Shown here: in pieces, positions 33,013 through 52,408 of the stretch
How the letters are laid out: each line of letters opens with the position of its first letter
Numbering within the stretch: position 1 is the first letter of the stretch
NCBI RefSeq assembly: GCF_030409845.1
Contig: NZ_JAUFQQ010000005.1
Coordinates: forward strand, 558,001-622,000
From: Flavobacterium branchiarum
Lineage (GTDB): Bacteria; Bacteroidota; Bacteroidia; Flavobacteriales; Flavobacteriaceae
Reading direction: 5' to 3'
DNA length: 64,000 bases
The notes under the pieces: generated by a model
What the model saw: only the letters and a program-made list of their open reading frames with translations
Databases searched by the model: none
Told to the model about the DNA's origin: nothing
Position numbers and translations under genes: made by a program

Positions 33013-34269
33013 GTGAGTATGGAAACGACAAAAAAATCAACGTTTAAGGTATTGTTCTACCTTAAAAAGAACGCCCCAAAGAAAAACGGAAAAGTTACGG
33101 TTATGTGCAGAATTACCGTAAACGGCAAACAGTCTGCATTCAGTACAAAGCTGGATATTTCCGCAACAAATTGGGATTTGAAGTACGGCAGGGTTTTAGG
33201 TAAAAGCCGAGAAGCCCAAGACACAAACAGCAAACTTGACAAAATTCGTTCGGGTATTGAGGAATGCTATTCCAAAATCCTGAAGAACGAGGGGGCTGTA
33301 AACAGTGCTAAACTTAAAAATGCCGTTCTTGGGATGGAAAGTGGAGAAGTGACCTTTTTCAAATTCTATGAACAGTTCCTGTCCGACTATGAGAAAAAGG
33401 TTAATAGCGGACTTCGTGTGAATGGCACACGCAGTAAATACAAAATACTTTTGAAACATCTTCGAAATTTTGCACTTACAAAATACGGCTATTCAGATGT
33501 GCCCTTTAACGACCTTACACCTGATTTTGTGCAGGACTTTGATTACTACCTGCGTGACGACCAAAGTTTAACACACAACACCATTTGGCTGTATATGATT
33601 GGATTTACTACACTTTGCCGATTGGCAATGAGCAGAAAGCATCTTGCTTTTAATCCGTTCAGCGAGTATAAGAATACTAAAAAGGATAAAGACCGTGGTT
33701 ATCTATTGCGTAATGAATTGGAACAGCTCGTAACGTTCAACTGCGATAAAAAGAAAGACGAATTAGTTAAAGACTTGTTTATTTTCAGTTGCTTTACAGG
33801 TCTTTCCTATTCAGATATGAAAGGACTGAAAAACAGCAATCTTCAAGATTTTTTTGACGGTAAGAGGTGGATTATTGTACGAAGAAAGAAAACGGCAACA
33901 TCATCCAATGTAATGCTGTTGGATATTCCTAAAATGATTATTGAAAAATATGCAGGATTGTCAAAGGACGGAAAGGTATTTCCTGTACCATCAAATACGA
34001 TTTGTAATGACAGCTTAAAGAGAATATCTCAACTGATTGACTGCCTTGTAGAAAAGAAAGTAACCTTTCATTTAGCACGTCATACGTTTGCTACGCTATT
34101 TTTAAGCGAGGGTGTTCCATTAGAAAGTTTGAGCAAAATGCTAGGGCATAAAAACATTGCTACTACTCAGATTTATGCAAAAATTCTCAACGAGAAAGTC
34201 GGAAAGGATATGCAAAAGGTCTCTAATAAATTTAAAGGATTGGAACAGTCTTTTGTATCTCAACTTTAA
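33013..34269 (+). CDS. Tyrosine recombinase (Bacteroidetes-type integrase)
   Basis: 418 residues. An arm-binding-like N-terminus (1-90) is followed by a SAM-like core-binding domain (110-215) and a catalytic domain. The latter shows FTGLSYSDMKGL (region of the first catalytic Arg), HLARHTFAT (HxxR), GHKNIATTQIYAKI (His and nucleophilic Tyr). The layout matches integrases of Bacteroidetes conjugative and mobilizable elements. It is the leftmost gene of the island, transcribed inward, and should integrate and excise it with help from the HTH proteins at 39.8-40.4 kb. Confidence 0.92.
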   Translation: MSMETTKKSTFKVLFYLKKNAPKKNGKVTVMCRITVNGKQSAFSTKLDISATNWDLKYGRVLGKSREAQDTNSKLDKIRSGIEECYSKILKNEGAVNSAKLKNAVLGMESGEVTFFKFYEQFLSDYEKKVNSGLRVNGTRSKYKILLKHLRNFALTKYGYSDVPFNDLTPDFVQDFDYYLRDDQSLTHNTIWLYMIGFTTLCRLAMSRKHLAFNPFSEYKNTKKDKDRGYLLRNELEQLVTFNCDKKKDELVKDLFIFSCFTGLSYSDMKGLKNSNLQDFFDGKRWIIVRRKKTATSSNVMLLDIPKMIIEKYAGLSKDGKVFPVPSNTICNDSLKRISQLIDCLVEKKVTFHLARHTFATLFLSEGVPLESLSKMLGHKNIATTQIYAKILNEKVGKDMQKVSNKFKGLEQSFVSQL

Positions 34270-34441: not shown

Positions 34442-37400
34442 ATGAACGTACTCAACCAATACATAACCTTTCTGAAAGAATATAAAAAACTGCTCGAAAG
34501 AGGAGTAAAAGACGTTCTGAATTCAACTGTTTCCAGTAATTTTATTTGGGTTGATGAAATAGAAAATTTCATTGATTCGGGTATATGTGAATCCACTTTA
34601 ATTGATATTTTTTCTTCAAAATTCAAGAAACAGCCTCTAATATTCTCTTTACAAAAACCGTATAAACCAAATATACAAATCCAAAATAGATTCTTAGAAA
34701 TTATTGCTTTTGACGAAGCTAAAAACAAGTTTGAAAGTATTATTGGAGATGAAGAAGAACTTATAAGTTTTCAAAATTCGACAGAAGGAAAAGTTGAAAT
34801 AGAAAAATTAAAAAAGTTTAAAAAAAACAAAGAAACTTATTCAAAGCTTTACAGAGCTTATAACGATATTAAAAATGATTCAAACTTGGAAATCGTTTTG
34901 AGTGTTGGATTCATACAATATTCCAAATTAAATAACAATGGAAATTTGTCAAAAACCAATCAACATTTATTTCATTTTCCTTTATCGTTAGATATTGATT
35001 CAAATAATGTTGTAAAAATTTCATTGTCAGATTTAGAAAACCCTTATCCAGATTTTTTCTTTCTAAATAATACTCCTATTGAGAAAGAAATATTATCAAA
35101 TGTCATTGATAGATTTGAAGAAAGAGTTACTGAATTTGGTTATGAGTACATTTTTGAAAACGAATTTAAAGATTTAATTGCAAAATCTATTCAAAAAATT
35201 TCCAGCAATTCTGAATTTGAAAATTTAATTTACAGACCAGAAAGCGACCATTTCAGAGAAGATTATTTTAAGGTGCTATTTTCTCCTGCAATAAATATTA
35301 AACAACGAAAGCCACGTTTCTTCGAAAAATTAACGGATTCAATCATTAAACACAATGATGAAAATGAAATAGAAGCAAAACTATTTAATCTATTAGTTAG
35401 AAATCCTGAATCATCAGGAAACAATTCTTACACAAAACCTAACTATTTTAAAGACGAACTTTTTGAAACTCATAAAGCTAAAGCTAAAAACCTAACTGGA
35501 GATGACGACTTTTCTGTGTTTTTCCCTCTTCCATTTAACAAGGAACAAAAACAGATTTATGAAAATTATTTAAAAAACAGATTAACTGTTGTAACAGGAC
35601 CTCCAGGAACTGGAAAATCTCATACAATTGTAAACATACTTTGTTCTTTGTTAGCGCAAGGAAAAAGAGTGCTTGTCACTGCCCAAACAGATAAGGCTTT
35701 GGAATCTTTACTTGATAAAATTCCAGAAACTTTTGATGATTTGATATTCACAAAAATACAATTAGAAACTAATCAAAATCGGTTTTCATTAGAAAAAAGT
35801 ATTGGCAATATTTCAAAAATTCTTACGGACAACTTTTATATAAATGTTGAAACTAAAATTGAAGAGTTAGACAATTTAAAAGCTGAATATGTAAAATTAA
35901 AATCCGAAATTATTCGAGCTCTTGAAAAAGAATACACTCAAATCAGGATTAATGACTCTTTTGAAAATTTAAGGGCCTATCAAATTGTTGAAAAATTTGA
36001 ATCGAAAGAATCAGAAGAATGGAATTGGATTCAAGATGAATTATCAAATGAAGCTATATTAAATTTTGAAGTTATTAAAAATGGGATTTTAAAATACAAA
36101 CAATTAATTGGAACAGAAATCCGATACAATAATGCTATCAATATTGATATTTCATCAATATTGAAAAACTTAGAAAGTTTTGATTTTAAAAACTTCCTAT
36201 CTATTCAAGAGCAATACATCAAGCAATTAAATTATTTGGGATTAAATGAGTATTCCAAAGATAAGTTGTTAAACATTCAGTTAGAAAATATCGCAAAAGT
36301 TGCAAATGAATTTTCTAACTCGGATATCGTTCTCAAAAACATTAAGGAATTAGAGAATCTACAGAAACAATTAAACAATAAGGTTTTTCAAGAAAGTGTT
36401 ACGATAAATAAATCCTTTAGTAACCTTACTGAAAATGGAACAAAGTATCTTTTAGACATAGAAACTTACCTATCGTTTGCTGAAAATGGGAAAGCAGGAT
36501 TTTTTACAAAACTCGCCAATTCTAATTTTAAACAAGTTTCATATTTAGAACAATTTACTGTAAATGGTAAAAAGTGTAATAACAAAACTGAAATATTACA
36601 ATTAAAATCGGCAATTGAAAACCTCATTATTATCAACAAAAATTTCACGTTGTTGAAACAAAATGGTTTTTCGTTCTCTTATGACGATAACTCCAATCTC
36701 TATGAAAAAAGCATCGTTTTAAAGGAGGTTTTGAAAAAGATAGAAACAAACAAGGAAGTTGTTTCTAAAATTCAATTCAATGCGGACTTTATAAATTTTT
36801 CAGAACACACTCAAATCAATTTGTTTGACATAGACAATTTATCAAAAAAAGCAATATCATTTAAAGATGACATCGATAAATTAGGAAGAATAAATTATCA
36901 ATTAATTGAGAAACTTGAAGTATTAAAAAACATTGATTCAATAATTGAACAATCTTCATTAAAAAATGACTTTTTAAACTTTTTACCTGTTGAAAAAATT
37001 GGAGAAGCACAAGATTTTGAACTTTTAAAGAGCAAATTTTTAGAAATCGGAAAACAGCTCGAGGTAGAACAAACATTTCTCAACTTAAAAAAGTATTTGA
37101 GAGATTTGCTTCCAAATACTTTTGATTCTCTTGAAAATATTCCTAATCATTATATTTCAAAGGAAAATTTCGAATACGCTTCTGCCAATAGGTTCATTAA
37201 AGAAAACGAATTTATTGATTTACAAAAATGTAAAGAAGAATTATCATTTATCAACAAAAAAATATTCCAAGTTAAATGTGATATTTTGTTTGACCTAGCA
37301 AAGTCAAACTTTAAAAACAAGTTTGATAATAATGAAATTGATGCTTTTATAAATTTGCTGGAAGAATACAAATATAACCTATCTCAAAGTGTTAGAAAGA

Positions 37401-39622
37401 TTCGAAACCAAACTCAATATCAGATTCTTACACGCAAGAACAGTATTGATATTAGCAAGAGGTTGTCTTGTTGGGTAATGAAATTTAATGATGTTTTAAA
37501 TTCGGTTGGAAGTGAGCCTGAAATTTTTGATTGCGTTATTGTTGATGAAGCAAGTCAATTAGACTTTAATAGCCTTATTTTAAGTTATTATGCAGAAAAT
37601 ATGATAATCGTTGGAGACGACAAACAAACATCTCCAAGTAGTCTGACAGGAGCTGACGGAAACGATTTTGAATCTATTAAAAATAAACATCTCAAATTTT
37701 TAGGAGCAAACGCACTTCATATTAAAAGTGATAATAGTTTGTTTATGCTTTCAAAGATGGTTGCAGGAACTGCAAATCTAACTTTGAGAGAACATTTCAG
37801 ATGTGTTCCTGAAATTATTGAATTCTCAAAATTTCATTTTTACGACAATTCGTTACGACCTCTGAAACAGATTAACTCAAACAGACTTAATCCAAAAGAA
37901 ACTGTTTTTGTAAACGATGCATTTACAGAAGACAAAATTGTTTACAAAGAAATTGAAGAAATTAAAAAATTTCTTCAAAAAATTCTAAAAGACGAGCAAT
38001 ATGCAAATAAATCTATAGGCGTAGTAAGTTTAGGATTAACAAAGCATACTGAAAAACTAAAGGACATAAAGGAAGATTTAGCCAATGAATTTGGAAAGGA
38101 AAAAATAGATAAGCATAAACTTATTATAGAAGATTCTCCAAAATTTCAAGGAGATGAAAGAGATGTTATGATTGTTTCTCTTGGAGTTGCATTAGATTTT
38201 CAGAAATTGAAAGAAAATCAAAATGCCAAACCACGAGCAATTATTAGTGACCAAGACGAATTTAAAAAAATTAATGTCGCATTAAGTCGTGCAAAAGAAC
38301 AAATGATTTTATTTCATTCTGTTGAGCATAACGATTTACAAACAAATGACTTTAGAAATAAAATCTTGAGTTTCTTCAAAGATGAAGCAAAACCAATTTC
38401 TCAATTACAAATTGATAACAACAATATTGAAAGATTTAGACACAATGTTCCTGAACCATTTGACAGCTGGTTTGAATGCGATATTGCTAAAGCACTCATT
38501 GAAAATGGATATAGTTATATTCAACCGCAATACAGTGTAAAAGAAGCAGAACTTTTTTATAATCATAAACTTGGAAAACAAGTTTACATCAACTTTAAAA
38601 TTGATTTAGTAATCCATAATAATGGAAAAATGATTGCGATAGAATGTGATGGCGACCCTTTTCATTCACTTCCTGAAGATGTGGCTTACGATATTGAAAG
38701 GCAAGAATTTTTAGAACGTGTTGGTTGGAAAGTATATCGTGTTCTTTATTCGGCGTATAAAAGAAGTCCACAAGATGAAATACAAAAAATTATAGATTTC
38801 ATTGAAAGAAACACGAAGAAAGATCATAAAATAATTATTGAAAAAACAATTGAATTAAAAGAAGAATTTGAAGATGAAATAGAATTTGAGAATGATGAAG
38901 AAATACCTGAATATGTTTTGCCGAAACATAAATCATACATTGACATTTTAGAAGAAAAGAGTGAAACTTCTAATCCTTTAGTTCAATTGAATGGTACGAC
39001 TACAAATCATAAACACAAGTCATTCATTGATATGATTGAGGAAGATTTGGAAGAATCAAATCAGAGGAATCTATTTTCAAATGATAGCAAAATTCTTTGC
39101 TACTTCAATCTTTTCAATGACAACACATACAAAATACAAGAAAATTCAGAAAAAAATTGTTTGTTTTCATTACCTATTGACGTAAAGTTTAAAAACGGAT
39201 TTCTCCTTCAATGTTACGACAACGGACATATAAACAAAGTTTATGTAAATTCTATACTAGAAAAGAGAATGAACTATCATTATTCAAATGGCAAAAATCC
39301 AAACGCAAATATTCTTTATCTCAAGTTGATTGAAGAAGATGAGATTATTGCTTTAAAAATAAAACGAGGTTTAGAAACTGTTTTTAAAGCTCATAAAACT
39401 GAAAATATTTCAAATAGAGAACTTTTACATTTGCAAGGATATAAAGTTGTTTATCAAACTACTGAAAATATTGAATACAAAATTTTACCTAAAAATATTT
39501 ATGGAGATATTAAACGGCTAGTTTTTACAAGTTTTTCAGCAGAAGGAAAATCAGTACATAATAGTTACTATGAAAATGAATGGAACGTAATTAAACGATT
39601 TATTCCTAACCTAAATGAATAA
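34442..39622 (+). CDS. SF1 (UPF1/DNA2-like) helicase fused to a PD-(D/E)XK-like nuclease
   Basis: 1726 residues. The N-terminal 380 residues are of unknown fold. Walker A is GPPGTGKSH near residue 385, and motif II is VDEASQLDF near 1034. The gap of about 640 residues between them is helix-rich with coiled-coil character. Later come the superfamily-1 motifs LREHFRC and VALSRAK (near 1279). A nuclease-like domain (about 1340-1460) has FKIDLVI and IAIECDGD with the expected D...ExD pattern, like the MTES/Vsr-type REase fused to such helicases. The C-terminal tail has a short internal duplication. The architecture suggests a stand-alone anti-phage helicase-nuclease; substrate and role are inferred. 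Confidence 0.85.
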   Translation: MNVLNQYITFLKEYKKLLERGVKDVLNSTVSSNFIWVDEIENFIDSGICESTLIDIFSSKFKKQPLIFSLQKPYKPNIQIQNRFLEIIAFDEAKNKFESIIGDEEELISFQNSTEGKVEIEKLKKFKKNKETYSKLYRAYNDIKNDSNLEIVLSVGFIQYSKLNNNGNLSKTNQHLFHFPLSLDIDSNNVVKISLSDLENPYPDFFFLNNTPIEKEILSNVIDRFEERVTEFGYEYIFENEFKDLIAKSIQKISSNSEFENLIYRPESDHFREDYFKVLFSPAINIKQRKPRFFEKLTDSIIKHNDENEIEAKLFNLLVRNPESSGNNSYTKPNYFKDELFETHKAKAKNLTGDDDFSVFFPLPFNKEQKQIYENYLKNRLTVVTGPPGTGKSHTIVNILCSLLAQGKRVLVTAQTDKALESLLDKIPETFDDLIFTKIQLETNQNRFSLEKSIGNISKILTDNFYINVETKIEELDNLKAEYVKLKSEIIRALEKEYTQIRINDSFENLRAYQIVEKFESKESEEWNWIQDELSNEAILNFEVIKNGILKYKQLIGTEIRYNNAINIDISSILKNLESFDFKNFLSIQEQYIKQLNYLGLNEYSKDKLLNIQLENIAKVANEFSNSDIVLKNIKELENLQKQLNNKVFQESVTINKSFSNLTENGTKYLLDIETYLSFAENGKAGFFTKLANSNFKQVSYLEQFTVNGKKCNNKTEILQLKSAIENLIIINKNFTLLKQNGFSFSYDDNSNLYEKSIVLKEVLKKIETNKEVVSKIQFNADFINFSEHTQINLFDIDNLSKKAISFKDDIDKLGRINYQLIEKLEVLKNIDSIIEQSSLKNDFLNFLPVEKIGEAQDFELLKSKFLEIGKQLEVEQTFLNLKKYLRDLLPNTFDSLENIPNHYISKENFEYASANRFIKENEFIDLQKCKEELSFINKKIFQVKCDILFDLAKSNFKNKFDNNEIDAFINLLEEYKYNLSQSVRKIRNQTQYQILTRKNSIDISKRLSCWVMKFNDVLNSVGSEPEIFDCVIVDEASQLDFNSLILSYYAENMIIVGDDKQTSPSSLTGADGNDFESIKNKHLKFLGANALHIKSDNSLFMLSKMVAGTANLTLREHFRCVPEIIEFSKFHFYDNSLRPLKQINSNRLNPKETVFVNDAFTEDKIVYKEIEEIKKFLQKILKDEQYANKSIGVVSLGLTKHTEKLKDIKEDLANEFGKEKIDKHKLIIEDSPKFQGDERDVMIVSLGVALDFQKLKENQNAKPRAIISDQDEFKKINVALSRAKEQMILFHSVEHNDLQTNDFRNKILSFFKDEAKPISQLQIDNNNIERFRHNVPEPFDSWFECDIAKALIENGYSYIQPQYSVKEAELFYNHKLGKQVYINFKIDLVIHNNGKMIAIECDGDPFHSLPEDVAYDIERQEFLERVGWKVYRVLYSAYKRSPQDEIQKIIDFIERNTKKDHKIIIEKTIELKEEFEDEIEFENDEEIPEYVLPKHKSYIDILEEKSETSNPLVQLNGTTTNHKHKSFIDMIEEDLEESNQRNLFSNDSKILCYFNLFNDNTYKIQENSEKNCLFSLPIDVKFKNGFLLQCYDNGHINKVYVNSILEKRMNYHYSNGKNPNANILYLKLIEEDEIIALKIKRGLETVFKAHKTENISNRELLHLQGYKVVYQTTENIEYKILPKNIYGDIKRLVFTSFSAEGKSVHNSYYENEWNVIKRFIPNLNE

Positions 39623-42375: not shown

Positions 42376-42810
42376 ATGGAAGAGAAAGACAGAAAAAAGA
42401 TTAGTAAAACAGGAAGAAAACCGAAGAACGACCCTGCGGTCAATCGGTATTCAATTAACCTGAATGCAGAAGACAATGCCAAGTTCCTTGCTCTGTTTGA
42501 CCAATCGGGAATGAAAGTAATAGCTCATTTTATTACGGCTTGCATCTTTCAAAAGACGGTAAAGACCGTGAAAATTGATATGGATGCAATAGAATATCAC
42601 GAAAAGTTGACCCGATTTTTTAGTCAGTTCCGAGCAATCGGAACAAATTACAATCAGATTGTGAAGATATTGTACCGCAATTTTTCAGAGAAAAAAGCAG
42701 GAACATACCTTTTTAAATTGGAAAAGGAAACCATAGAATTGGTAAAAGTCACGAAAGAAGTCATCCGTTTGACACAGGAATTTAAAGAGAAGTATCTGAA
42801 AAAAGAGTAA
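42376..42810 (+). CDS. mobA: Relaxosome accessory protein (MobA/MobC-like)
   Basis: 144 residues, basic. The N-terminus KKISKTGRKPKNDPAVNRYSINLN resembles a ribbon-helix-helix segment. The rest matches the MobC-type relaxosome family of Bacteroidetes elements, with the pattern FRAIGTNYNQIVKILY near residues 85-100. It should bind oriT and help the relaxase nick. The relaxase gene follows after 4 bases. In Bacteroidetes nomenclature the accessory protein is called MobA and the relaxase MobB. Confidence 0.83.
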   Translation: MEEKDRKKISKTGRKPKNDPAVNRYSINLNAEDNAKFLALFDQSGMKVIAHFITACIFQKTVKTVKIDMDAIEYHEKLTRFFSQFRAIGTNYNQIVKILYRNFSEKKAGTYLFKLEKETIELVKVTKEVIRLTQEFKEKYLKKE

Positions 42811-42814
42811 AGTT

Positions 42815-44071
42815 ATGGTTGCAAAAATTGGGAAGGGAAGCAATATGTACGGAGCGATTTTGTACAATCAGCAGAAAGTGGACGAAGAAAATGGGACAGT
42901 TTTATTACTGAACAAGATACCCGACACGGTGGACGGCAGTTATTCTGTAGCCTATTTTAATAAATGCTTTGAGCCATATTTATCGGCAAACATCAAAACG
43001 GAAAAGACAGTACGGCATATATCGCTGAACCCAGATCCTGCGGATAAGGTCAACGATGAGCAGTTTACCGAAATGGCTCAGGAGTATATGGAGCGTATGC
43101 GGTATGGCAATCAGCCCTATATTGTTTTCAAACATACGGATATTGACCGAACGCATATACACATTGTTTCAACTTGTGTAGCTATTGACGGAAAGAAAAT
43201 CCCCGATGATTACGACCATCCACGCTCAATGGCAATCTGTCGGGATTTGGAACAGAAATACAATCTGAACAAAGCCACTGAGCAGGAGCATAAACAAGCC
43301 AATAAAGTTTTCAAGCCTGTAAATCATAAAAATGGTGATATTAAAAGTCAGATTGCTTCGGTAGTAAGGTATTTGCCTAAGTATTATAGCTTTTCTACTA
43401 TGGGTAGTTACAATGCTTTACTATCACTTTTCAATATCACTGTGGAGGAAGTCAAGGGCGAGCGGAACGGACAACCTGTAAACGGGTTGGTGTATGTGGC
43501 AATGGACGAGAACGGAAATAAGGCAAGTAATCCGTTCAAGGCATCGCTTTTCGGGAAAGATGCAGGCGTTGTACAACTGCAAAAACACTTTGAGCAGTCC
43601 AAAGAGAAAATGAAAACCACGCCTGTAAGGTCTGTTCTGAAAAATACGGTGGAGCTTGCCATACATACCACAAGCAACGAAACAGATTTTAAAAAGCAGT
43701 TGACCGAGCAGGGTATTAATACAGTTGTAAGACGTAATAGTGAAGGACGAATTTACGGCATGACCTTTATTGACCACGAAAGTCGAACCGTTTGGAACGG
43801 CTCACAATTAGACAGAAACTTATCGGCAAATATGTTTAACGATTGGTGGAACAATGGAAATAAACCCAAATTGAAGATACAAGATAACCCTGTTTCTAAA
43901 GCAAATGAAATAGACAACCTACTGACAAAAGACCTTTTTGAGTTTCTCTCACAGGAACATTCGCCTAATACCGATTTGGGAATGTTCAGCCTGTTACCCG
44001 ATGCACAGGGTGTGGATTACGAGGAAGAACAGTTTGCTAGTAGGATGAAGAAGAAAAAACATAGAAGATAA
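42815..44071 (+). CDS. mobB: Relaxase/mobilization nuclease (MobB, MOBP-like)
   Basis: 418 residues. The relaxase domain (Pfam Relaxase type) fills the N-terminal half. The metal-binding triad motif is in TDIDRTHIHIVSTCVAIDG near residues 108-126, with a candidate nucleophile Tyr in the first 30 residues (NMYGAILYNQQK). The relaxase nicks oriT and pilots the strand into the recipient. No VirD4/TraG coupling protein follows, so transfer needs a helper. G+C is visibly higher here than in the cargo genes. Confidence 0.88.
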   Translation: MVAKIGKGSNMYGAILYNQQKVDEENGTVLLLNKIPDTVDGSYSVAYFNKCFEPYLSANIKTEKTVRHISLNPDPADKVNDEQFTEMAQEYMERMRYGNQPYIVFKHTDIDRTHIHIVSTCVAIDGKKIPDDYDHPRSMAICRDLEQKYNLNKATEQEHKQANKVFKPVNHKNGDIKSQIASVVRYLPKYYSFSTMGSYNALLSLFNITVEEVKGERNGQPVNGLVYVAMDENGNKASNPFKASLFGKDAGVVQLQKHFEQSKEKMKTTPVRSVLKNTVELAIHTTSNETDFKKQLTEQGINTVVRRNSEGRIYGMTFIDHESRTVWNGSQLDRNLSANMFNDWWNNGNKPKLKIQDNPVSKANEIDNLLTKDLFEFLSQEHSPNTDLGMFSLLPDAQGVDYEEEQFASRMKKKKHRR

Positions 44072-44113
44072 TATACAGATTCTTAGTGCTATTTTTTTTA
44101 TAATTTAGAGTGT

Positions 44114-44146
44114 GACACGGATTGGCTTACTCTTTAAGTATTTTTG
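44114..44146 (+). promoter_or_regulatory. Shared promoter/operator element, copy 1
   Basis: GACAC at 44114-44118, CTTACTCT at 44126-44133 and a perfect -7 element TATTTTTG at 44139-44146. The same three blocks with identical spacing occur at 49245-49277. This copy lies 63 bases upstream of the zinc-ribbon gene and is the likely promoter of the exonuclease/DUF262 operon. Confidence 0.7.
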
Positions 44147-44208
44147 CTATGTAAAATAAGGAAAGCTGAAAACTTTGAGAGTAGGCATAATATAAAACAT
44201 TACAGATT

Positions 44209-44460
44209 ATGGCAAATTATTATTGTGAGTATTGCGGAACAAAGTATTCCAGCGTATCAGGTCTAACAAGTGGTTCGTGTATGCGACATCCTAATGGCTC
44301 TCATAAAGGAAAACACAAACTATATGAGGGAAGCGAAAAATCGCAGTATGTCTGTAAACATTGCGGGACAAAGTATTCATCTCTTTCAAGCTTAACAAGT
44401 GGTTCGTGTATGAGACACCCAAATGGCTCACACAAAGGAAAACATGCACCTGCTTTGTAA
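44209..44460 (+). CDS. Double zinc-ribbon small protein
   Basis: 83 residues made of two near-identical modules with a 43-residue period. Each has CxxCGTKYSS, then LTSGSCMRHPNGSHKGKH. Putative zinc ligands are C6, C9, C24, H27 and C49, C52, C67, H70. Two small zinc-binding knuckles suggest nucleic-acid or protein binding. Its stop is immediately followed by the exonuclease ATG, so it is the first gene of the operon. I know no function for the family; the internal duplication supports that it is real. Confidence 0.78.
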   Translation: MANYYCEYCGTKYSSVSGLTSGSCMRHPNGSHKGKHKLYEGSEKSQYVCKHCGTKYSSLSSLTSGSCMRHPNGSHKGKHAPAL

Positions 44461-44952
44461 ATGGAATGTTTTACCGCAATAGACTTTGAAACTGCACAAG
44501 GTTATCGTTGGAGTATTTGTCAGGTTGGACTTGTTCGTGTCAGTAATGGTATTATCACTGATGAAATTAACTTATTAGTACAACCGCCTGATAACTATTA
44601 TTGGGGGAGATTTATTGACATTCATGGCATTACTCCAGACATGACAAAAGAAGCTCTCACTTTCGACAAAGTCTGGTACAGATTAGAACCTTATATCAAA
44701 GGACAAGCCGTTGTAGCCCACAATGGCTTGTCCTTTGATTTTCCAGTTTTAGAAAAAACATTGGAATATTATGGCATGGAAAATCCCAAATATGAAAAAC
44801 ATTGTACGTATCGAATTTTTAGACAAAATTTAGCTTCATTGTGTATGCACCACAAAATTTCATTAAATCATCATGACGCTTTAAGCGATGCTAAAGCTTG
44901 TGCTGAATTGTTTTTGATACATTTGCAAAGTATAAACAATATTGAAAAATGA
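44461..44952 (+). CDS. DEDDh 3'-5' exonuclease (DnaQ-like)
   Basis: 163 residues. Exo I is AIDFETA (D8, E10), Exo II is VVAHNGLSFDFPVL near residue 84-97, and Exo III is HHDALSDAKACAE with the His and Asp of the DEDDh type. It is a complete single-domain epsilon-like nuclease. It follows the zinc-ribbon gene without a gap and overlaps the DUF262-HNH gene by 4 bases, so it is co-translated with a restriction-like system. A role in degrading cut phage DNA or processing RNA is inference. Confidence 0.88.
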   Translation: MECFTAIDFETAQGYRWSICQVGLVRVSNGIITDEINLLVQPPDNYYWGRFIDIHGITPDMTKEALTFDKVWYRLEPYIKGQAVVAHNGLSFDFPVLEKTLEYYGMENPKYEKHCTYRIFRQNLASLCMHHKISLNHHDALSDAKACAELFLIHLQSINNIEK

Positions 44953-46736
44953 ACAACAACATATCAATAAAAACAATCAGCGAATTGCTGAAATGTAATT
45001 TCCATATCCCGTCTTATCAGAGAGGTTATCGTTGGACAGAACAACAAGTAACAGATTTATTGAATGACATTAATGAATTTTCACCAAAAGAAATTGCTAA
45101 TTCTGATGAAAAAACTTGGTATTGTTTACAGCCAATAGTAGTAAAACAAAAAGATGAAAATGAATGGGATGTAATTGACGGACAACAAAGATTAACTACA
45201 ATTTATCTAATCTTGTATTATTTGAACCAAAGATATACAGAAGAAGGAAAAGTTAAACTGTTTGAGTTAGAATATGAAACACGAGAAGGTTCTGCAAACT
45301 ACTTAAAAAATGAGTTGGGAAAGATAGAAAAGGACAATTCAAATATTGACTATTTCCACATATCAATTGCTTATCAAACTATTAAGGGTTGGTTCAAAGA
45401 AAAAAAAGTAGAAAAATCATTTGAATTGAAATTTAATGATTTTACAAAGGTTATTTGGTACGAAACTTCAAAAACCGAAGATTCAATTGATATTTTCACA
45501 AGAATAAACAGCGGAAAAATTCTACTAACAAATGCGGAATTGATAAAGGCTTTGTTTTTGAACAGTTCCAATTTTACAAATGCAGACACAGAGAAACTGC
45601 GTTTGAAACAATTAGAAATTGCATCAGAATGGGACAGAATTGAATATGCTCTACAGGGCGATTCATTTTGGTATTTCATCAACAAAAATGAAAACAACTT
45701 AGCAACAAGAATTGAGTTTATTTTCAATTTAATGTATGAAGTAGCACAAGCAGAGGATAAAGAGATGGAAGAAAGAAAACGCTTGGGAATAAAGACAAAA
45801 GAACAAATTGATGAGAGAAGAAAAACTCATCAAACAATTGTTGAAATATTTGGTAATGATGAGTATTCCAATTTCCGTTTTTTTGCTCAAAAATTTAGGA
45901 TCAAATCAGAAAACGAAATAAACGATAATTGGCAGGATATTAAAAAATATTTTCAAATACTTGAAGAATGGTTCAATGACAGAGAATTGTATCATAAAAT
46001 CGGCTGTCTGATTGCAACTAGAACAAACATTAAAAATATTCTTAACGAAAAAAAAGAAAGGTCAAAAACAGAATTTGCAAATTGGATAAACCAAGAAATA
46101 CAATCCAAATTTAGAAAAGTGAATTTTGAAGAAGTAGAATATAACGGAGGATATGTACGTGAAATTTTATTACTGCACAACATTCAAACAATGCTCAATA
46201 ATGAAAACGAAACTAATCGTTTTCCTTTTGACCGGTATAAAAAAGAGTTTTGGGACGTTGAACATATTCACGCTATTGCAACAGAAGTGAAAGTGAAAAA
46301 GGAAAATCAAGCTGATTGGCTGAGAAACAACTTTGTTAAAACAGAAAATCATCAAGATAAAGACAGAAATAATCAAATTGAACAAATCATACAATCAGGC
46401 AAAACCATTGACGAAAATGAGTTTGAATACATTATCGATTATGTTTTAGGCGAAGAAGATAATAGCTTGCAAAATCTTTGTCTGTTGGACAGGGGAACAA
46501 ATCGTTCTTATAAAAACGATTCATTTAAAGAAAAGAGGAAAAAGATAATCGAAAGAGAAATTGAAGGAACTTTTATTCCAATTTGTACAAAGAATGTTTT
46601 TATGAAATATTATTCCACCAACGTAAAAGATATTGAAGTATGGAATGAAAACGACAGAACATCATATTTTAAAAAGATACAAGAAGTAATTACTGAATAT
46701 TTACCTCAAACCGAATTAACTGAAAATGAACAATAA
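44949..46736 (+). CDS. DUF262-DUF1524 (GmrSD-like) modification-dependent endonuclease
   Basis: 595 residues. The DUF262 domain has IPSYQRGYRW near residue 18 and VIDGQQRLTT near 75, the ParB/Srx-fold nucleotide-binding motif. The C-terminal DUF1524 region has DVEHIHA near 435 and NLCLLDRGTNRSYKN near 508, the His-Me/HNH nuclease pattern. Fused GmrS-GmrD proteins are type IV restriction enzymes that cut modified phage DNA using NTP. It overlaps the exonuclease gene upstream and the second DUF262 gene downstream (11 bases). Confidence 0.88.
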   Translation: MNNNISIKTISELLKCNFHIPSYQRGYRWTEQQVTDLLNDINEFSPKEIANSDEKTWYCLQPIVVKQKDENEWDVIDGQQRLTTIYLILYYLNQRYTEEGKVKLFELEYETREGSANYLKNELGKIEKDNSNIDYFHISIAYQTIKGWFKEKKVEKSFELKFNDFTKVIWYETSKTEDSIDIFTRINSGKILLTNAELIKALFLNSSNFTNADTEKLRLKQLEIASEWDRIEYALQGDSFWYFINKNENNLATRIEFIFNLMYEVAQAEDKEMEERKRLGIKTKEQIDERRKTHQTIVEIFGNDEYSNFRFFAQKFRIKSENEINDNWQDIKKYFQILEEWFNDRELYHKIGCLIATRTNIKNILNEKKERSKTEFANWINQEIQSKFRKVNFEEVEYNGGYVREILLLHNIQTMLNNENETNRFPFDRYKKEFWDVEHIHAIATEVKVKKENQADWLRNNFVKTENHQDKDRNNQIEQIIQSGKTIDENEFEYIIDYVLGEEDNSLQNLCLLDRGTNRSYKNDSFKEKRKKIIEREIEGTFIPICTKNVFMKYYSTNVKDIEVWNENDRTSYFKKIQEVITEYLPQTELTENEQ

Positions 46737-48960
46737 TCCAACATCAGAAAAATTAACTTTTAGTGAGTTAATTAGTAAGCATAAAATTGAAATTCCTATT
46801 ATACAGCGTGATTACGCTCAAGGCAGAGAGGGAAAAGCAGATATAAGAACTAATTTTTTGAATGCTTTGCTTGAAGTAGTTGATGGTAAAAAATTAGAGT
46901 TAGATTTTGTTTACGGAAGTGTTAAAAAGGATAAAGAGGGTAATACAACTTTGCAACCTCTTGACGGGCAACAGCGATTAACAACTTTGTTTTTGTTGCA
47001 TTGGTTCGTTGCTACCAAAGAAAATAAGTTAGACGATGAATTGAAAAAACTCTTAACAAAATTCACTTACGAAACACGTACCAGCTCACGTGAATTTTGC
47101 AACGATTTAATCAATAAAGGAATTGATTTTGATAATTTGTTAGAAACAGATTATCACGATAAAGAAAAAATAAAACCAAAGAATAATGAACTATCCAAGA
47201 CAATTATTGACAGCTCTTGGTTTTTCCTTTCTTGGAAAAGAGACCCGACAATAAAATCAATGCTTAGAATGTTAGATGCTGTTCAGCAAACGTTTCAAGA
47301 CAAAACGGAAGTTTGGGACAAGCTCAACAATATTAGTTTTCATTACATAGAATTACAAAACTTCGGACTTTCCGATGATTTGTATATCAAAATGAACGCA
47401 AGAGGTAAACCTCTTACTGATTTTGAAAACTTCAAAGCAAAGTTTGAACAATACATCAAACAAGATGATTGGGAAAATTACGTTGAGCCAACAGAGACAT
47501 TTTCACATCAAATTGATACTCTTTGGACAGATTTGTTTTGGAATTATCGTGATAAAACCGAAAACATTTTTGACGAACAGCTTCTGAATTTTTTCAGAAC
47601 AAAGGCAGTAATTAATTATACGCTTAAAGCAGATATCAAAAGTAATAATTTCAGAGCCAACGTTGATTTATTGAGAGGAAGCGATACAATTCCATTCAAT
47701 CAATATTTGGAGTTAGGTTGTTTTGATGAGGAGTATTTTACAACATTGAAAGCTACTTTAAATAAATTGTCTGATAAAGATGGATTGAATACATTTATTT
47801 CAGAAACCACTTACGTGAATGAACAAGAAATTTTTAATGGTACAATTAAAAATGACTTATCATATCCTGATTTGGTTATTGCTTTTGCTTATTATCAATA
47901 TTTGGCATCGGAAAAAAATATTGAAATTGAAAAATTGGAAAGTTGGTTGCGTGTTGTTCGTAATCTGGTAGAAGGTAGCAGACCCTATTTATTCAATAAT
48001 GCTAATGAGTTTGCAAATGCTCTACGTTCTATAAACGAATTGTTGCAATATAGAAATTCAATCGTTGATCACTTCGCAGAAATACAAATTAATTCGCTTT
48101 CGGGTTTCATTAGTGAGCAAGTTATAGAAGAAAAACTAAAAGCGAAACTTATTACACAAAATGAGGATTGGAAAAATACAATTATTGAAATTGAAAATCA
48201 TAAATATTTCAATGGACAAATCGGATTTTTATTGCATTGGTGTCAGATAAATGATGAGCCTAACCTGAATAGTTTTAAGGAATATGCAGAAAAATCAAAA
48301 GCAATATTTGGAACAACAGGATTGAATAATTTTGAAAACTTTCTTTTTGAAAGAGCCTTGTTAGCCATAGGGGATTATTTGTTGAGTAAAGGAAAAAATC
48401 ACAGCTTTCTAATCGATAATGAACGTGATATTAGTTGGAAGAGGCTCCTAAGAGATAATAACGAAAAACGAGCATATTTAAAACAGCTTGTTGATAAAGT
48501 ATCTGTTTTAAATCTTACTATCGATTTACAAAAAATAGTTGATGAATTTTCTGATAAAAATGACTGGAGATATTATTTCATAAAACAATTTGAAATGATT
48601 TCCGCTTGTGGAAATCAAAAGCTAATAAGATGGGATAGTGAATTTGACATACTTCTGCTAGGTTCAACAACTACAAGTGGCTATCACAATGAATATTATT
48701 CTTATTCTTTATTTATCGAATTAAAAACTCAAAATAGATTAACTGATATTTCATATTATCCGCAACGTTCGGTTAATGATTGGAAGTTTTTTGAATTGAA
48801 CTACAATCAAATTGCATTTGATTGTAACACCAGTAAATATATTTGTACACAAAACAACGATTGGTATAATAAACAAGAATTTGAAAATAGAAACTCTGTA
48901 TTTGACTATATTATAGAGCTAAACACGGAAGACAAACTCAATGAAAAAACTTTATCTTGA
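46726..48960 (+). CDS. Second DUF262 protein with divergent C-terminus
   Basis: 744 residues. The N-terminal DUF262 domain has IPIIQRDYAQGRE near residue 17 and PLDGQQRLTTLFLL near 79, with INARGKPL-like KMNARGKPLTDFENFKA near 222. The C-terminal 300 residues show no HNH motif. Instead there is a region with SLFIELKTQNRLTDISYYPQ of unknown fold. It may act as a sensor or regulatory partner of the neighbouring nuclease-bearing DUF262 protein. It overlaps genes on both sides, implying fixed stoichiometry. Confidence 0.85.
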   Translation: MNNNPTSEKLTFSELISKHKIEIPIIQRDYAQGREGKADIRTNFLNALLEVVDGKKLELDFVYGSVKKDKEGNTTLQPLDGQQRLTTLFLLHWFVATKENKLDDELKKLLTKFTYETRTSSREFCNDLINKGIDFDNLLETDYHDKEKIKPKNNELSKTIIDSSWFFLSWKRDPTIKSMLRMLDAVQQTFQDKTEVWDKLNNISFHYIELQNFGLSDDLYIKMNARGKPLTDFENFKAKFEQYIKQDDWENYVEPTETFSHQIDTLWTDLFWNYRDKTENIFDEQLLNFFRTKAVINYTLKADIKSNNFRANVDLLRGSDTIPFNQYLELGCFDEEYFTTLKATLNKLSDKDGLNTFISETTYVNEQEIFNGTIKNDLSYPDLVIAFAYYQYLASEKNIEIEKLESWLRVVRNLVEGSRPYLFNNANEFANALRSINELLQYRNSIVDHFAEIQINSLSGFISEQVIEEKLKAKLITQNEDWKNTIIEIENHKYFNGQIGFLLHWCQINDEPNLNSFKEYAEKSKAIFGTTGLNNFENFLFERALLAIGDYLLSKGKNHSFLIDNERDISWKRLLRDNNEKRAYLKQLVDKVSVLNLTIDLQKIVDEFSDKNDWRYYFIKQFEMISACGNQKLIRWDSEFDILLLGSTTTSGYHNEYYSYSLFIELKTQNRLTDISYYPQRSVNDWKFFELNYNQIAFDCNTSKYICTQNNDWYNKQEFENRNSVFDYIIELNTEDKLNEKTLS

Positions 48961-49234
48961 TGATTTGAGACCAATCCCAGAAGGACACATAGGAGTTAGT
49001 TCTTATACGGAGTTTGTAACTTACATTACTGATAGTGGACTGCCTGATTTCATTTCTTTTGACCACGATTTAGGACTCGAAGAGAGTGGGTATGATTGTG
49101 CTAAATGGTTAGTAAATTATTGTTTAGATAATAATTTTCGATTGCCCAAATTTGATGTACATAGTCAGAATCCTGTTGGTAAAGAAAATATATTATCATT
49201 ACTACAGAATTTTAAAAAGAATATAAAAGGCTAA
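48941..49234 (+). CDS. Receiver-like protein (cyclic-phosphate-processing REC type)
   Basis: 97 residues beginning MKKLYLDDLRPIPEG, with DFISFDHDLG near residue 38-47 and a C-terminal VHSQNPVG. This is the pattern of a receiver-fold family (cREC) that Aravind and colleagues predicted to process cyclic phosphates in RNA repair or conflict systems. It has an LDD acidic pair but the HDLG motif in place of a classical phospho-acceptor loop. It overlaps the second DUF262 gene by 20 bases and closes that operon. Confidence 0.75.
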   Translation: MKKLYLDDLRPIPEGHIGVSSYTEFVTYITDSGLPDFISFDHDLGLEESGYDCAKWLVNYCLDNNFRLPKFDVHSQNPVGKENILSLLQNFKKNIKG

Positions 49235-49244
49235 TATAAACCAC

Positions 49245-49277
49245 GACACACTTTGTCTTACTCTGGATATACCTTTG
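49245..49277 (+). promoter_or_regulatory. Shared promoter/operator element, copy 2
   Basis: GACAC at 49245-49249, CTTACTCT at 49257-49264 and a perfect -7 element TACCTTTG at 49270-49277, spaced exactly as at 44114-44146. It lies 18 bases before the ATG at 49295 and inside the frame that an earlier TTG start would use, which argues for the ATG. Confidence 0.7.
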
Positions 49278-49294
49278 TCAAAAAAGATAGGTTT

Positions 49295-50968
49295 ATGGAA
49301 AGTATCACAAAGAAACAAATTCTGGAAAGCATTGGGAAAGTGTACGAACAATCAAAAAAATGTAAGCTTGAAAATTCATTTTTTGAAAGCATCAAATCCG
49401 AACTAGATACACTTTCCCAATATTTTAAAACATCGGATAATCAAACCTTTTTTATTGCAATGGTTTTTGCTTTAAACTACAAAGGAGATACTGTCGATTT
49501 GAACGATTTGATAGAATATTTTGATTGTAATCCAATGAAAATTTTGGAATACAGCGATGATTTCGAGTATTTACATAAAGTTGGGATTTTTGAAAAAAAG
49601 AAATCGAGACACCGTGTGAAGTTAGCAGGAGCTAATGACCAATTTACCATCCACGAAAAAATCACGGAAGCCATTTTGCAAAACAAACCTTTGCCTAAAA
49701 TCAACGAAAAGAAAATAAAGGGTATAATAGATTTGTTAGAACAGTTATACAAATTAGGCGACCAACGAGACGATGATAAAATTTCAACCTTTGAACTATT
49801 TCGGGAAGTTGATAAATTGATCTTAGATAATACGCATTTTCCGTTGATAGAAAAAGTAAAACAATTCAGTTTAAGCACAGAAGACACTTATCTTTTTTTG
49901 TACTTGATATGGAAAACAGTGTCAGGAAACGAATCTACAGATATAGGAAGAGCTTTGGAGGGTATTTATGATAGTCCATCAGAGAGAGTAAATGAAGTTC
50001 AAAAATTGTTATCTGGCAATCATATCCTTATTAACAATAATTTGGTTGAAATTATAGAAGCTCAATTTTTCAATGATACAGAAATGAGATTGACGGACAC
50101 TTCTCTTCAACTTCTGAATGATTGTGACATTAAACTTTTTTTAAACAAAAAGAGAAAAGATAATATCATTATTCCCTCGGAAATTGTTTATCGTGAATTG
50201 GTTTTTGATAGGGACGAGATGAATCAATTAGAAACGCTACAAAATTTACTTCAAGAAGACAAGTTTAATGAAACACAGACAAGACTAACAAATAAAGGTT
50301 TACCCAAAGGAATTGCAGTTTTGTTACATGGCGCACCTGGAACAGGAAAAACCGAAATTGTAAAACAATTGGCAAAAGCTACAGACAGAGAAATAATGAA
50401 AGTGGAAATCAGTCAGTCAAAATCCATGTGGTTTGGCGAAAGTGAAAAAATCATTAAACGTATTTTCACAGATTACAGAGCTTATGCAAAAGAATCTAAA
50501 CTAACACCTATTTTACTTTTCAATGAAGCTGATGCCATTATTTCTAAAAGGAAAGAAAACAGTAATTCCAATGTGGCTCAAACTGAAAATGCTATTCAAA
50601 ATATTATACTGGAAGAGCTTGAAAACTTTGAAGGTATTTTAATGGCAACTACCAACTTAGCTAATAATTTGGACACTGCTTTTGAACGAAGATTTTTATT
50701 TAAAGTACCGTTCAAGAAACCCACAAAAAAGGTAAGAGCTAAAATATGGAAATCAAAATTATCACATTTAGATGAAAAGAGTTGTCAAATACTCGCAGAT
50801 AAATTTGACTTTTCAGGTGGACAGATAGATAATATTATTCGTAAAAGTGAAATACAGGAAATCGTTCATGGCACAATGACCAACTTTGAAGAAATACAGT
50901 CATTTTGTAGCGAGGAATCCATAATAACAAAAACAACTAAAATTGGATTTGGCTATGCATACGATTAA
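49295..50968 (+). CDS. AAA+ ATPase with a uncharacterised N-terminal region
   Basis: 557 residues from the ATG at 49295; a TTG at 49253 would add 14 residues but overlaps the promoter element. The first 320 residues are helical with a possible winged-helix segment and no family I know. The AAA+ domain has Walker A HGAPGTGKTEI near residue 344, Walker B LLFNEADAI near 407 and a sensor/arginine region ATTNLANNLDTAFERRF. It resembles classical-clade AAA proteins such as Vps4/FtsH. The phosphoesterase gene overlaps its end by 14 bases. Confidence 0.85.
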   Translation: MESITKKQILESIGKVYEQSKKCKLENSFFESIKSELDTLSQYFKTSDNQTFFIAMVFALNYKGDTVDLNDLIEYFDCNPMKILEYSDDFEYLHKVGIFEKKKSRHRVKLAGANDQFTIHEKITEAILQNKPLPKINEKKIKGIIDLLEQLYKLGDQRDDDKISTFELFREVDKLILDNTHFPLIEKVKQFSLSTEDTYLFLYLIWKTVSGNESTDIGRALEGIYDSPSERVNEVQKLLSGNHILINNNLVEIIEAQFFNDTEMRLTDTSLQLLNDCDIKLFLNKKRKDNIIIPSEIVYRELVFDRDEMNQLETLQNLLQEDKFNETQTRLTNKGLPKGIAVLLHGAPGTGKTEIVKQLAKATDREIMKVEISQSKSMWFGESEKIIKRIFTDYRAYAKESKLTPILLFNEADAIISKRKENSNSNVAQTENAIQNIILEELENFEGILMATTNLANNLDTAFERRFLFKVPFKKPTKKVRAKIWKSKLSHLDEKSCQILADKFDFSGGQIDNIIRKSEIQEIVHGTMTNFEEIQSFCSEESIITKTTKIGFGYAYD

Positions 50969-51527
50969 AATTAAAAGCCAAAACATTTTATTGTTATCAG
51001 ATACGCATGGCAAACATCGTTTAATCGATATTCCTAAAAATATTCAGATTGTAATTCATTGTGGAGATATTTGTAATGCAGGAGATATGGATGAAGTTTT
51101 GGATTTTTTTAAATGGTACGCTCAATTAGAAATACCACATAAAATATTTATTCAGGGAAATCATGATTTGCCTTTCGAGTTAGAACCAGAATGGGGTAAA
51201 AGATTGATTCCTAAAGACATTATTTGGTTAAATGACGAAGCGATAGTAATAAGTGAAATAAACATAATGGTAATCAGTGCTTTCCCTTTTTATAATGGTA
51301 TTGAAACGAAAAATAAAATTGACATCATTGCGTCACATTACCCTCCTTACGGTATTTTAGACAATGGATTTGGCAGTGAAGAAATTAGTAATTTTATATT
51401 TCAGTTGGCACCAAAATACCGCATATTTGGTCACAATCATTCCAACTATGGAAAAACAAAATACAAAAACATTCAGTATATTAACGCATCTATTTATCAT
51501 AAGTTATGTCAAAAAGAGAATCAATAG
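50955..51527 (+). CDS. Calcineurin-like metallophosphoesterase
   Basis: 190 residues from ATG 50955; an upstream TTG at 50943 is less likely. All five metal-binding blocks are visible: LLSDTHGK (DxH), HCGDICN, QGNHDLP, ASHYPPYG and FGHNHSNYG. The enzyme should hydrolyse a phosphomono- or diester, possibly a nucleotide signal or nucleic-acid end. It overlaps the AAA+ gene and the WYL gene, so it works in the same module. Confidence 0.88.
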   Translation: MHTIKIKSQNILLLSDTHGKHRLIDIPKNIQIVIHCGDICNAGDMDEVLDFFKWYAQLEIPHKIFIQGNHDLPFELEPEWGKRLIPKDIIWLNDEAIVISEINIMVISAFPFYNGIETKNKIDIIASHYPPYGILDNGFGSEEISNFIFQLAPKYRIFGHNHSNYGKTKYKNIQYINASIYHKLCQKENQ

Positions 51528-52408
51528 CAAGGTATAATCTCATCATAAAAAAATTAAGAAAACGACCTGCAACATTTGCTGAAATTGAAGAATATCTTGC
51601 CTTGGAATCAGAAATTCAAGCTTACAATTTCAATATTTCAAAGCGTACATTTCAACGAGATAGAGACGATATTCGTTCTTTATACAATATCGATATTTTG
51701 TTTGACTTTTCTAAAAAAGTCTATTACATAGATTTTGATGAACAACCAGAAGCAAATGAAAGGATATTAGAAGCTTTCGACACCTTTAATGCTTTGAATT
51801 TAACAGATAGGCTTTCTAAGCATATTCATTTTGAAAAACGGAAACCTCAAGGTACTGAACATCTGTATGGAGTACTTCATGCTATTAAAAATCAGATTCA
51901 AATAAAATTTGTGTATCAAAAATATTGGGAAGATGAGTTAACTGAACGCATAGTAGAACCATATGCTCTGAAAGAATTCAAAAACAGATGGTATGTCTTA
52001 TCAAAAGTTTTAGGTGATGATAAGATAAAGAGTTTTGCCCTTGACCGTTTAACAGATTTAGAAATTTTGAATAAGAAATTCAACTTCCCAAAGGATTTTG
52101 ATGTAAATGAACATTATAGATACTGCTTTGGTATTATCAGTCCGAACGGTCATCAGCCAGAAGATGTAATTCTTTCTTTCAATGCATTCCAAGGGAAATA
52201 TATCAAATCATTACCGTTACACGATTCTCAACAAATTTTGATAGACAATGAACATGAATTAAGAATACAGCTCAAACTATTCATTACACACGATTTCTTT
52301 ATGGAACTTTTATCCTTTGGAGAAAACCTTGAAGTACTTAAACCTCAAAGCTTGATTGATGATTTAAAATCAACTGTTAGAAATATTCAAAGTATATATG
52401 AAGAGTAG
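51506..52408 (+). CDS. WYL-domain transcriptional regulator
   Basis: 300 residues. An N-terminal winged HTH has SKRTFQRDRDDIRSLYNIDI near residues 45-64. The WYL domain (about 130-200) has IKFVYQKYW and NRWYVLSKV, with FALDRLTDLEIL. A C-terminal WCX-like extension follows. WYL regulators such as BrxR and CapW repress defence operons and respond to nucleic-acid ligands. Here it is the last gene of the AAA+/phosphoesterase operon and a good candidate for binding the shared CTTACTCT element. Confidence 0.87.
   Translation: MSKRESIARYNLIIKKLRKRPATFAEIEEYLALESEIQAYNFNISKRTFQRDRDDIRSLYNIDILFDFSKKVYYIDFDEQPEANERILEAFDTFNALNLTDRLSKHIHFEKRKPQGTEHLYGVLHAIKNQIQIKFVYQKYWEDELTERIVEPYALKEFKNRWYVLSKVLGDDKIKSFALDRLTDLEILNKKFNFPKDFDVNEHYRYCFGIISPNGHQPEDVILSFNAFQGKYIKSLPLHDSQQILIDNEHELRIQLKLFITHDFFMELLSFGENLEVLKPQSLIDDLKSTVRNIQSIYEE

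Follow-up and report, generated by a model that had tools for sequence, protein, structure and literature searches.

Gene content of the locus

Within 64,000 nucleotides of Flavobacterium branchiarum DNA (assembly GCF_030409845.1, contig NZ_JAUFQQ010000005.1, forward-strand positions 558,001 to 622,000; this whole stretch is the window, and all coordinates refer to it) lies an operon of eight genes, at 44209-52408 of the + strand, in which two proteins with a DUF262 domain stand among an exonuclease, an ATPase, a WYL regulator and three smaller companions. Domains were assigned by searches of Pfam, PADLOC and NCBIfam, and the features are as follows.

44150..44208, +: upstream stretch alike in a Sphingobacterium locus (L001), likely promoter or leader of the operon (blastn match begins at 44150)
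44209..44460, +: ZnR, 83 amino acids, two CxxC...CxxH zinc-finger repeats (open reading frame list, Pfam)
44461..44952, +: DEDDh 3'-5' exonuclease, 163 amino acids, RNase_T, with the motifs DFE, VAHN and HDALSDA present (Pfam, NCBIfam)
44949..46736, +: D262A (GrwA-like), 595 amino acids, DUF262 (DGQQR 77-81) and His-Me/HNH nuclease (EHIH 438-441, N509, N518) (Pfam, alignment)
46726..48960, +: D262B (GrwB-like), 744 amino acids, DUF262 (DGQQR 80-84) and a long, mostly helical C-terminal part (Pfam, alignment, structure model)
48941..49234, +: cREC receiver-like protein, 97 amino acids (cREC_REC; Pfam)
49253..50968, +: AAA+ ATPase, 571 amino acids, CDC48/IetA-like AAA domain at 356-487, Walker B LLFNEADA (Pfam, PADLOC, NCBIfam)
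50943..51527, +: MPP, calcineurin-like phosphoesterase, 194 amino acids, matching the PADLOC candidate PDC-S10 (Pfam, PADLOC)
51506..52408, +: WYL-WCX regulator, 300 amino acids, N-terminal helix-turn-helix (HTH) read from the sequence, without an HTH model match (Pfam, PADLOC)

The ZnR and DEDDh frames abut, and the following junctions overlap by 4 (DEDDh/D262A), 11 (D262A/D262B) and 20 bases (D262B/cREC). A gap of 18 bases separates cREC from AAA+, after which AAA+/MPP and MPP/WYL overlap by 26 and 22 bases; the AAA+ and MPP frames both begin with TTG, leaving their exact starts unsure. An earlier reading of these letters by a model (the original prediction) had proposed an operon of five genes, from ZnR to cREC. 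Its five frames, their positions on the + strand and their overlaps are confirmed, as are, by Pfam, the identities it gave to the zinc-finger, exonuclease, two DUF262 and cREC proteins, but the operon continues through AAA+, MPP and WYL. The zinc finger of ZnR passes barely (PF00096 zf-C2H2, 26.8 bits against a cut-off of 25.2), and its gene contains two 92-nt repeats, 80% alike and 129 nt apart.

The core pair and its known counterparts

Both central proteins carry GmrSD_N (DUF262; 111.5 bits in D262A, Pfam) and keep DGQQR, while the third DUF262 motif reads FTRIN in D262A and YIKMN in D262B, with Y for F. D262B has no second domain match in Pfam beside it. The DUF1524 nuclease, which the original prediction had given to one of the two DUF262 proteins, stands in D262A at the level of its active site (H439, H441, N509 and N518 are kept in 15 of 15 aligned rows) and falls short at the level of the profile, GmrSD_C scoring 20.9 bits under a cut-off of 23. 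A segment of some 30 residues after FNLM is found in the D262A proteins of the window, L009 and L010, and is absent from L001 and the remaining aligned rows.

The two genes are adjacent and on one strand in all 44 loci counted, which comprise 15 from genome contigs, 12 from viral contigs, 14 from genomes matched at E <= 1e-60 and another three from the genus, all located through D262B, so that the presence of D262B is given in each. Set apart from this count were the window itself, L067 (on the same contig as L002), the plasmid loci L035-L037 (3 of 17 plasmid matches of D262B were viewed), L116 (an adjacent pair at E about 1e-27) and L079 (where just the D262A type is present); the D262B proteins of L006 and L012 are the same, and contig ends shorten some flanks. 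D262A precedes D262B in the window and in the locus layouts listed, and two plasmid records, from Bacillota and Campylobacterota, hold the pair without the other operon genes. No match to D262B was found in the phage records searched. D262A unites DUF262 and nuclease domains in one chain, yet D262B accompanies it throughout these D262B-located loci.

The long C-terminal part of D262B was studied by alignment and modelling. In the 22-row alignment, recounted on 21 rows without the truncated L090, no residue past position 497 is invariant, the positions conserved in at least 90% of rows being mostly hydrophobic or aromatic, and for this reason no catalytic site is apparent in the aligned C-terminal third. 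A C-terminal 'IELK' resembled part of a PD-(D/E)XK motif and was rejected as unconserved. A first model, from 14 close rows, reached a predicted local distance difference test score (pLDDT) of 61.8 and gave no structural match. A second, from 22 rows including viral-contig relatives, reached a mean of 83.6, with two chains of 9jfl (DndBCDE-DndI) as its top two matches in the PDB (E 1.2e-3 and 7.2e-3). None of the 9jfl matches lies at E <= 0.001, their TM-scores on the query are 0.17-0.18, and no others stood out; the model suggests a resemblance to this entry in overall likeness only. Searched by sequence, D262B gave weak DUF262 matches in the PDB.

The closest counterpart is GrwAB of the Vibrio cholerae WASA lineage, described in 2025 as a two-gene, modification-dependent type IV restriction system (PMC12137116; this and the other cited papers are represented here by extracts). 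GrwA combines DUF262 with DUF1524, and GrwB, the second gene, joins DUF262 to further domains of unknown function; protection requires both genes, R81/R86 of DGQQR and H431/N521/N530 (PMC12137116). Compared by published description, architecture and gene order are those found here, a DUF262 protein with HNH nuclease first and one with a long C-terminus second. The arginine of DGQQR stands at 81 in both D262A and GrwA and at 84 in D262B against 86 in GrwB, and the asparagine pair of the nuclease is spaced by 9 in both (N509/N518 in D262A, N521/N530 in GrwA). In contrast, six added genes share the operon here, whereas GrwAB is called a two-gene operon and the extracts of its description mention no such partners (PMC12137116). 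The phages it acts on have 7-deazaguanine or sugar-modified hydroxymethylcytosine in their DNA, apart from some Markadamsvirinae that are also affected, and escapers carry changes in DpdA (PMC12137116).

TgvAB, described in 2024, likewise consists of two DUF262 proteins with DUF1524 in one, both being required together with the DGQQR of each and the HNH residues (PMC11411939). To judge from locus numbers and text, its DUF262-only gene comes first (tgvA VC1767, tgvB VC1766), the reverse of the order here, and TgvA and GrwB are distinct outside DUF262 (PMC11411939, PMC12137116). TgvAB is reported inside a type I restriction-modification (RM) locus (PMC11411939), as are the relatives of our pair in L080 and L119, where the pair sits between hsdS and hsdR, the position reported for TgvAB and RloF. 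DUF262 proteins as neighbours of GmrSD homologues had already been noted by Machnicka et al. in 2015 (PMC4619093).

Two statements of the original prediction are not supported by this comparison. It held that one of each domain type is required in the GmrSD systems known, and that no described defence system has this gene set; GrwAB and TgvAB are published with DUF262 in both proteins and share the architecture of the core (PMC12137116, PMC11411939), so the second statement fails for the core. It also suggested that the second DUF262 protein exerts control, whereas the DUF262-only protein and its DGQQR are required for protection by GrwAB and TgvAB, and a purely regulatory role, though conceivable there, is not the main interpretation given by the authors in the extracts of either paper (PMC12137116, PMC11411939). 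By its architecture, then, the core would be a further member of the known two-DUF262 type IV kind.

Single-chain enzymes offer a second comparison. In DndI, a DUF262 NTPase gates a His-Me nuclease. The same arrangement is reported for BrxU, SspE and Eco94GmrSD (PMC10952713, PMC11411939). All four are described as single-chain enzymes without an obligatory second DUF262 protein, unlike the pair here.

Accessory genes around the pair

Genes resembling the other six were sought around the 44 pairs, over 319 kb of flank within 4 kb and 236 kb at 4-8 kb, with profiles built from phmmer matches of the window proteins, so that several of the counted loci contributed to them. WYL is found on the same strand in 13 of the 44 loci within 4 kb against 2 at 4-8 kb, and on the opposite strand in 2 against 0. 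On the same strand within 4 kb, DEDDh occurs in 8, AAA in 6, MPP in 3, and ZnR and cREC in 2 each, all with 0 at 4-8 kb. Every one of the eight pair loci that bear DEDDh also has WYL. The original prediction had proposed a neighbourhood search, and several of its genes do co-occur elsewhere, with cREC only loosely linked.

Gene order varies: AAA > DEDDh > D262A > D262B > WYL in L002, WYL > DEDDh > D262A > D262B > AAA in L071 and L072, AAA > WYL > D262A > D262B in L070, and D262A > D262B > DEDDh > WYL in L093. Eight of the 13 WYL loci stem from the genome-contig scan with the window D262B and so partly represent one clade. On a tree of D262B, the WYL label requires 4 changes when set against six type I RM rows (L080, L115 and L119 labelled by Pfam; L112, L120 and L122 by gene sizes alone), and 55 of 500 shuffles came as low, so that clear clustering of the label is not seen; labelling of all 44 rows raises the number to 8 changes, the shuffles having been run for the six-row comparison. 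These 4 and 8 changes imply several gains or losses of the link between WYL and the pair.

The cassette with other nucleases

The accessory genes also recur where the pair is missing. AAA matches were found in 24 of 395 genomes, and contexts were read in 14 of these (our own included), the other matches being seen as short loci and 1 of 9 plasmid records being viewed; 11 of the 14 have WYL no more than about 5 kb away, two of them (L073, L078) on the other strand. DEDDh matches were found at 19 places in 18 of 217 genomes; all of these genomes but G079 and G083 were read, which gave 17 places in 16 genomes, with WYL nearby in 8: the window, L129, L130, L137, L138, L139, L140 and L142. Identity to the query is 57-100% for the DEDDh proteins that have WYL nearby, a range noticed after the fact, into which two without WYL (G633, G075) also fall, and 46-55% for the remaining seven that lack it. 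WYL itself was seen at 28 places in 17 genomes, which were chosen for these loci and do not serve as a control.

Two loci hold the complete set of DEDDh, WYL and AAA with another nuclease. L130 (7727-11740, one strand) reads ZnR > PD-(D/E)XK_4 nuclease (PDC-S26) > AAA > DEDDh > WYL, and in L065 WYL stands about 5 kb before GmrSD > DEDDh > AAA. Two of the three genes are present in L137 (DEDDh > single-chain GmrSD > WYL), L138 (DEDDh > a DUF262 protein matched by the D262A profile only > WYL), L139 (PD-(D/E)XK_4 nuclease > DEDDh > WYL, the AAA profile giving no match) and L066, where the neighbours of AAA > WYL are HsdM, HsdS, a DUF262 protein and a helicase-type gene truncated where the stretch ends. 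Between L130 and the D262-pair locus L006 the AAA proteins share 42% identity over 334 residues, so that two unrelated endonucleases are served by a single ATPase family; the L130 protein is only remotely similar to the AAA of the window (26% over the AAA domain). One match to AAA was found on viral contigs. In L037 (10256-11964), on a plasmid of Chryseobacterium balustinum, the AAA gene is split into two frames, and the related L009 has a single frame of 569 amino acids.

ZnR was found near WYL in 4 of 7 places (window, L129, L130, L147), two of the other three (L144, L145) lying on or near a contig end. In L129 (9504-13918), ZnR > DEDDh come first and cREC > WYL last; between them, at the place expected of a nuclease, stand two proteins (193 and 319 amino acids) without a Pfam match, and no DUF262 gene was found there.

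For parts of this set there are published relatives. WYL repressors of the BrxR/CapW type control defence operons (PMC9122601, PMC12255303), type IV restriction making up 37 of 210 BrxR-associated systems (PMC9122601), and some WYL regulators are said to bind single-stranded DNA (PMC12409362). Here too a WYL regulator, with WYL, WCX and an HTH read from the letters, accompanies a type IV restriction gene; unlike the BrxR/CapW type, it is the last gene of the operon and is coupled to DEDDh and AAA. The AAA domain of the window is nearest to IetA (90.5 bits in PADLOC), scoring 83.6 bits in NCBIfam against a cut-off of 510. The partner of IetA is the subtilisin-like IetS. With IetA so far below its cut-off and no protease match in Pfam among the eight genes, the operon does not group with IetAS; nor did the first 300 residues of the AAA+ protein have a clear match in Pfam, PADLOC or NCBIfam. 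A literature search, outside whose scope lay most subscription papers and bioRxiv, found no description of the eight-gene set or of a DEDDh-WYL-AAA cassette. The new part is this recurrent cassette with exchangeable nucleases, the core being already known by its architecture.

Transfer and the carrier element

In Sphingobacterium sp. FBM7-1 (L001), DNA alike to window positions 44150-52408 occurs in three pieces of 68%, 85% and 91% identity. The likeness stops exactly at the last base of the WYL gene, its stop codon, and blastn of the window against L001 gave no match beyond this block. Since the match ends at the WYL stop and none lies outside the block, the eight genes are marked as one transferred unit, although the DEDDh gene is missing from the L001 block.

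The carrier is an integrative mobilizable element, with these further genes.

33013..34269, +: tyrosine integrase of the operon-carrying element (Pfam)
42376..44071, +: MobC-like protein and MobA/VirD2 relaxase of the element (domain search)

In the near relative G004, just four bases separate the matches to 30884 and 52654 of the window, and therefore an insertion or loss of up to 21.8 kb took place. The stretch absent from the G004 site, 30885-52653, spans the integrase, the mobilization genes and a sodium:alanine symporter (31194-32630); no convincing att repeat was found. A gene at 34442-39622 encodes a protein of 1726 amino acids with an AAA_11/AAA_12 helicase and an MTES_1575 nuclease, partly alike to ProA, Hhe and PDC-S37; it probably gives this element a second defence gene.

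Proposed function and alternatives

We read the operon, with a probability of roughly 0.55, as a GrwAB-like, modification-dependent (type IV) restriction system to which a processing and feedback cassette has been added, carried on the integrative mobilizable element. Beside gene order, intact motifs, co-occurrence and the recurrence of the cassette with other nucleases, all of which are observed, the activities that follow are predicted. D262A and D262B would form a complex in which both DUF262 domains bind and hydrolyse nucleoside triphosphate and act as a gate on the D262A HNH nuclease; this nuclease would then cut phage DNA with modified bases, by analogy with GrwAB, TgvAB and BrxU; restriction of modified DNA by an HNH cutter, as first proposed, thus remains the best reading of the core by that analogy. 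DEDDh, judging from its family, would afterwards trim the cut ends, and the WYL regulator, by analogy with single-stranded-DNA-binding WYL proteins and BrxR, may read nucleic-acid fragments as a signal and adjust the output of the operon. The AAA+ protein might, from its domain, load, remove or remodel the nuclease complex, the least certain step. ZnR, cREC and MPP would play optional supporting parts, the last two perhaps by taking off end phosphates or clearing a nucleotide signal; processing of phosphate ends or nucleotide signals has been proposed for cREC (PMC7824862).

Several observations weigh against this reading. In the core, GmrSD_C stays under its cut-off and a PDB sequence search with D262A gave no match. 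The cassette is optional, for WYL is missing from both strands within 4 kb of 29 of the 44 pairs, and the exonuclease is not essential, since the L001 block lacks it. WYL is not nearby in 3 of the 14 AAA contexts (L075, L076, L084) or in 9 of the 17 DEDDh contexts. In the AAA family, Walker B reads NE rather than DE in 20 of 20 rows where the motif was found (of 22, some of them duplicates), which makes an ATPase role uncertain; the motif suggests that the protein may be slow or structural. No clear palindrome that might serve WYL as an operator lies upstream, exact inverted-repeat arms in 44041-44211 reaching at most 6 bases, imperfect sites not having been sought. Lastly, cREC lies near WYL in just 2 of 8 places (window, L129), so that it was rejected as a core component and, where the original prediction had seen a control element, is better regarded as an optional part.

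The absence of WYL from most pairs would also be expected if the operon merely stacked independent defence units (the restriction pair, MPP as PDC-S10, AAA-WYL and DEDDh) behind a shared promoter on a shared element, a doubtful but not negligible account. AAA-WYL beside a type I RM locus and the match of MPP by itself to the candidate family PDC-S10 speak in its favour; the return of the same accessories around nucleases in varied orders, all on one strand and in many cases closely spaced or overlapping, and the company that WYL keeps with DEDDh near the pair in 8 of 8 loci plus the window, speak against it. An unlikely alternative is that AAA, WYL and DEDDh restrain a toxic nuclease, silencing D262AB until a disturbance triggers cell-damaging action in an abortive defence. 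The later lysis and filamentous, non-dividing cells of infected GrwAB-producing cultures (PMC12137116) would fit it, as would the control of defence operons by BrxR and CapW repressors, but the cassette is absent from many pairs. Very improbable is a nucleotide signal made or broken by cREC and MPP and read by WYL, with D262AB as effector, for although cREC is described alongside WYL and NAD/cyclic-phosphate systems (PMC7824862), none of the eight operon genes has a cyclase, TIR or SIR2 model match, and cREC and MPP occur in few loci.

The restriction system with an added cassette, which we continue to prefer, permits a wider and more tentative suggestion. DEDDh, WYL and AAA+, sometimes with ZnR, could possibly constitute a sensing and feedback module that serves restriction loci of Bacteroidota in general, independently of the nuclease, and is plugged onto unrelated endonucleases (a GrwAB-like pair, a single GmrSD, PD-(D/E)XK_4 or type I RM), in which the exonuclease would make or remove the ligand of WYL and so report the cutting of phage DNA to the operon promoter.

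Implications

The reason for which a second DUF262 protein is required by some GmrSD-like enzymes is called unclear (PMC11411939) and is left open (PMC12137116) in the extracts of the two papers that describe such pairs. The operon of F. branchiarum ties a DUF262 pair to defined partners that recur with other endonucleases, so that the activating or restraining role of these partners is open to gene-by-gene removal. If the cassette is general, the pairing of a WYL regulator with an exonuclease would form an input layer common to many restriction systems.

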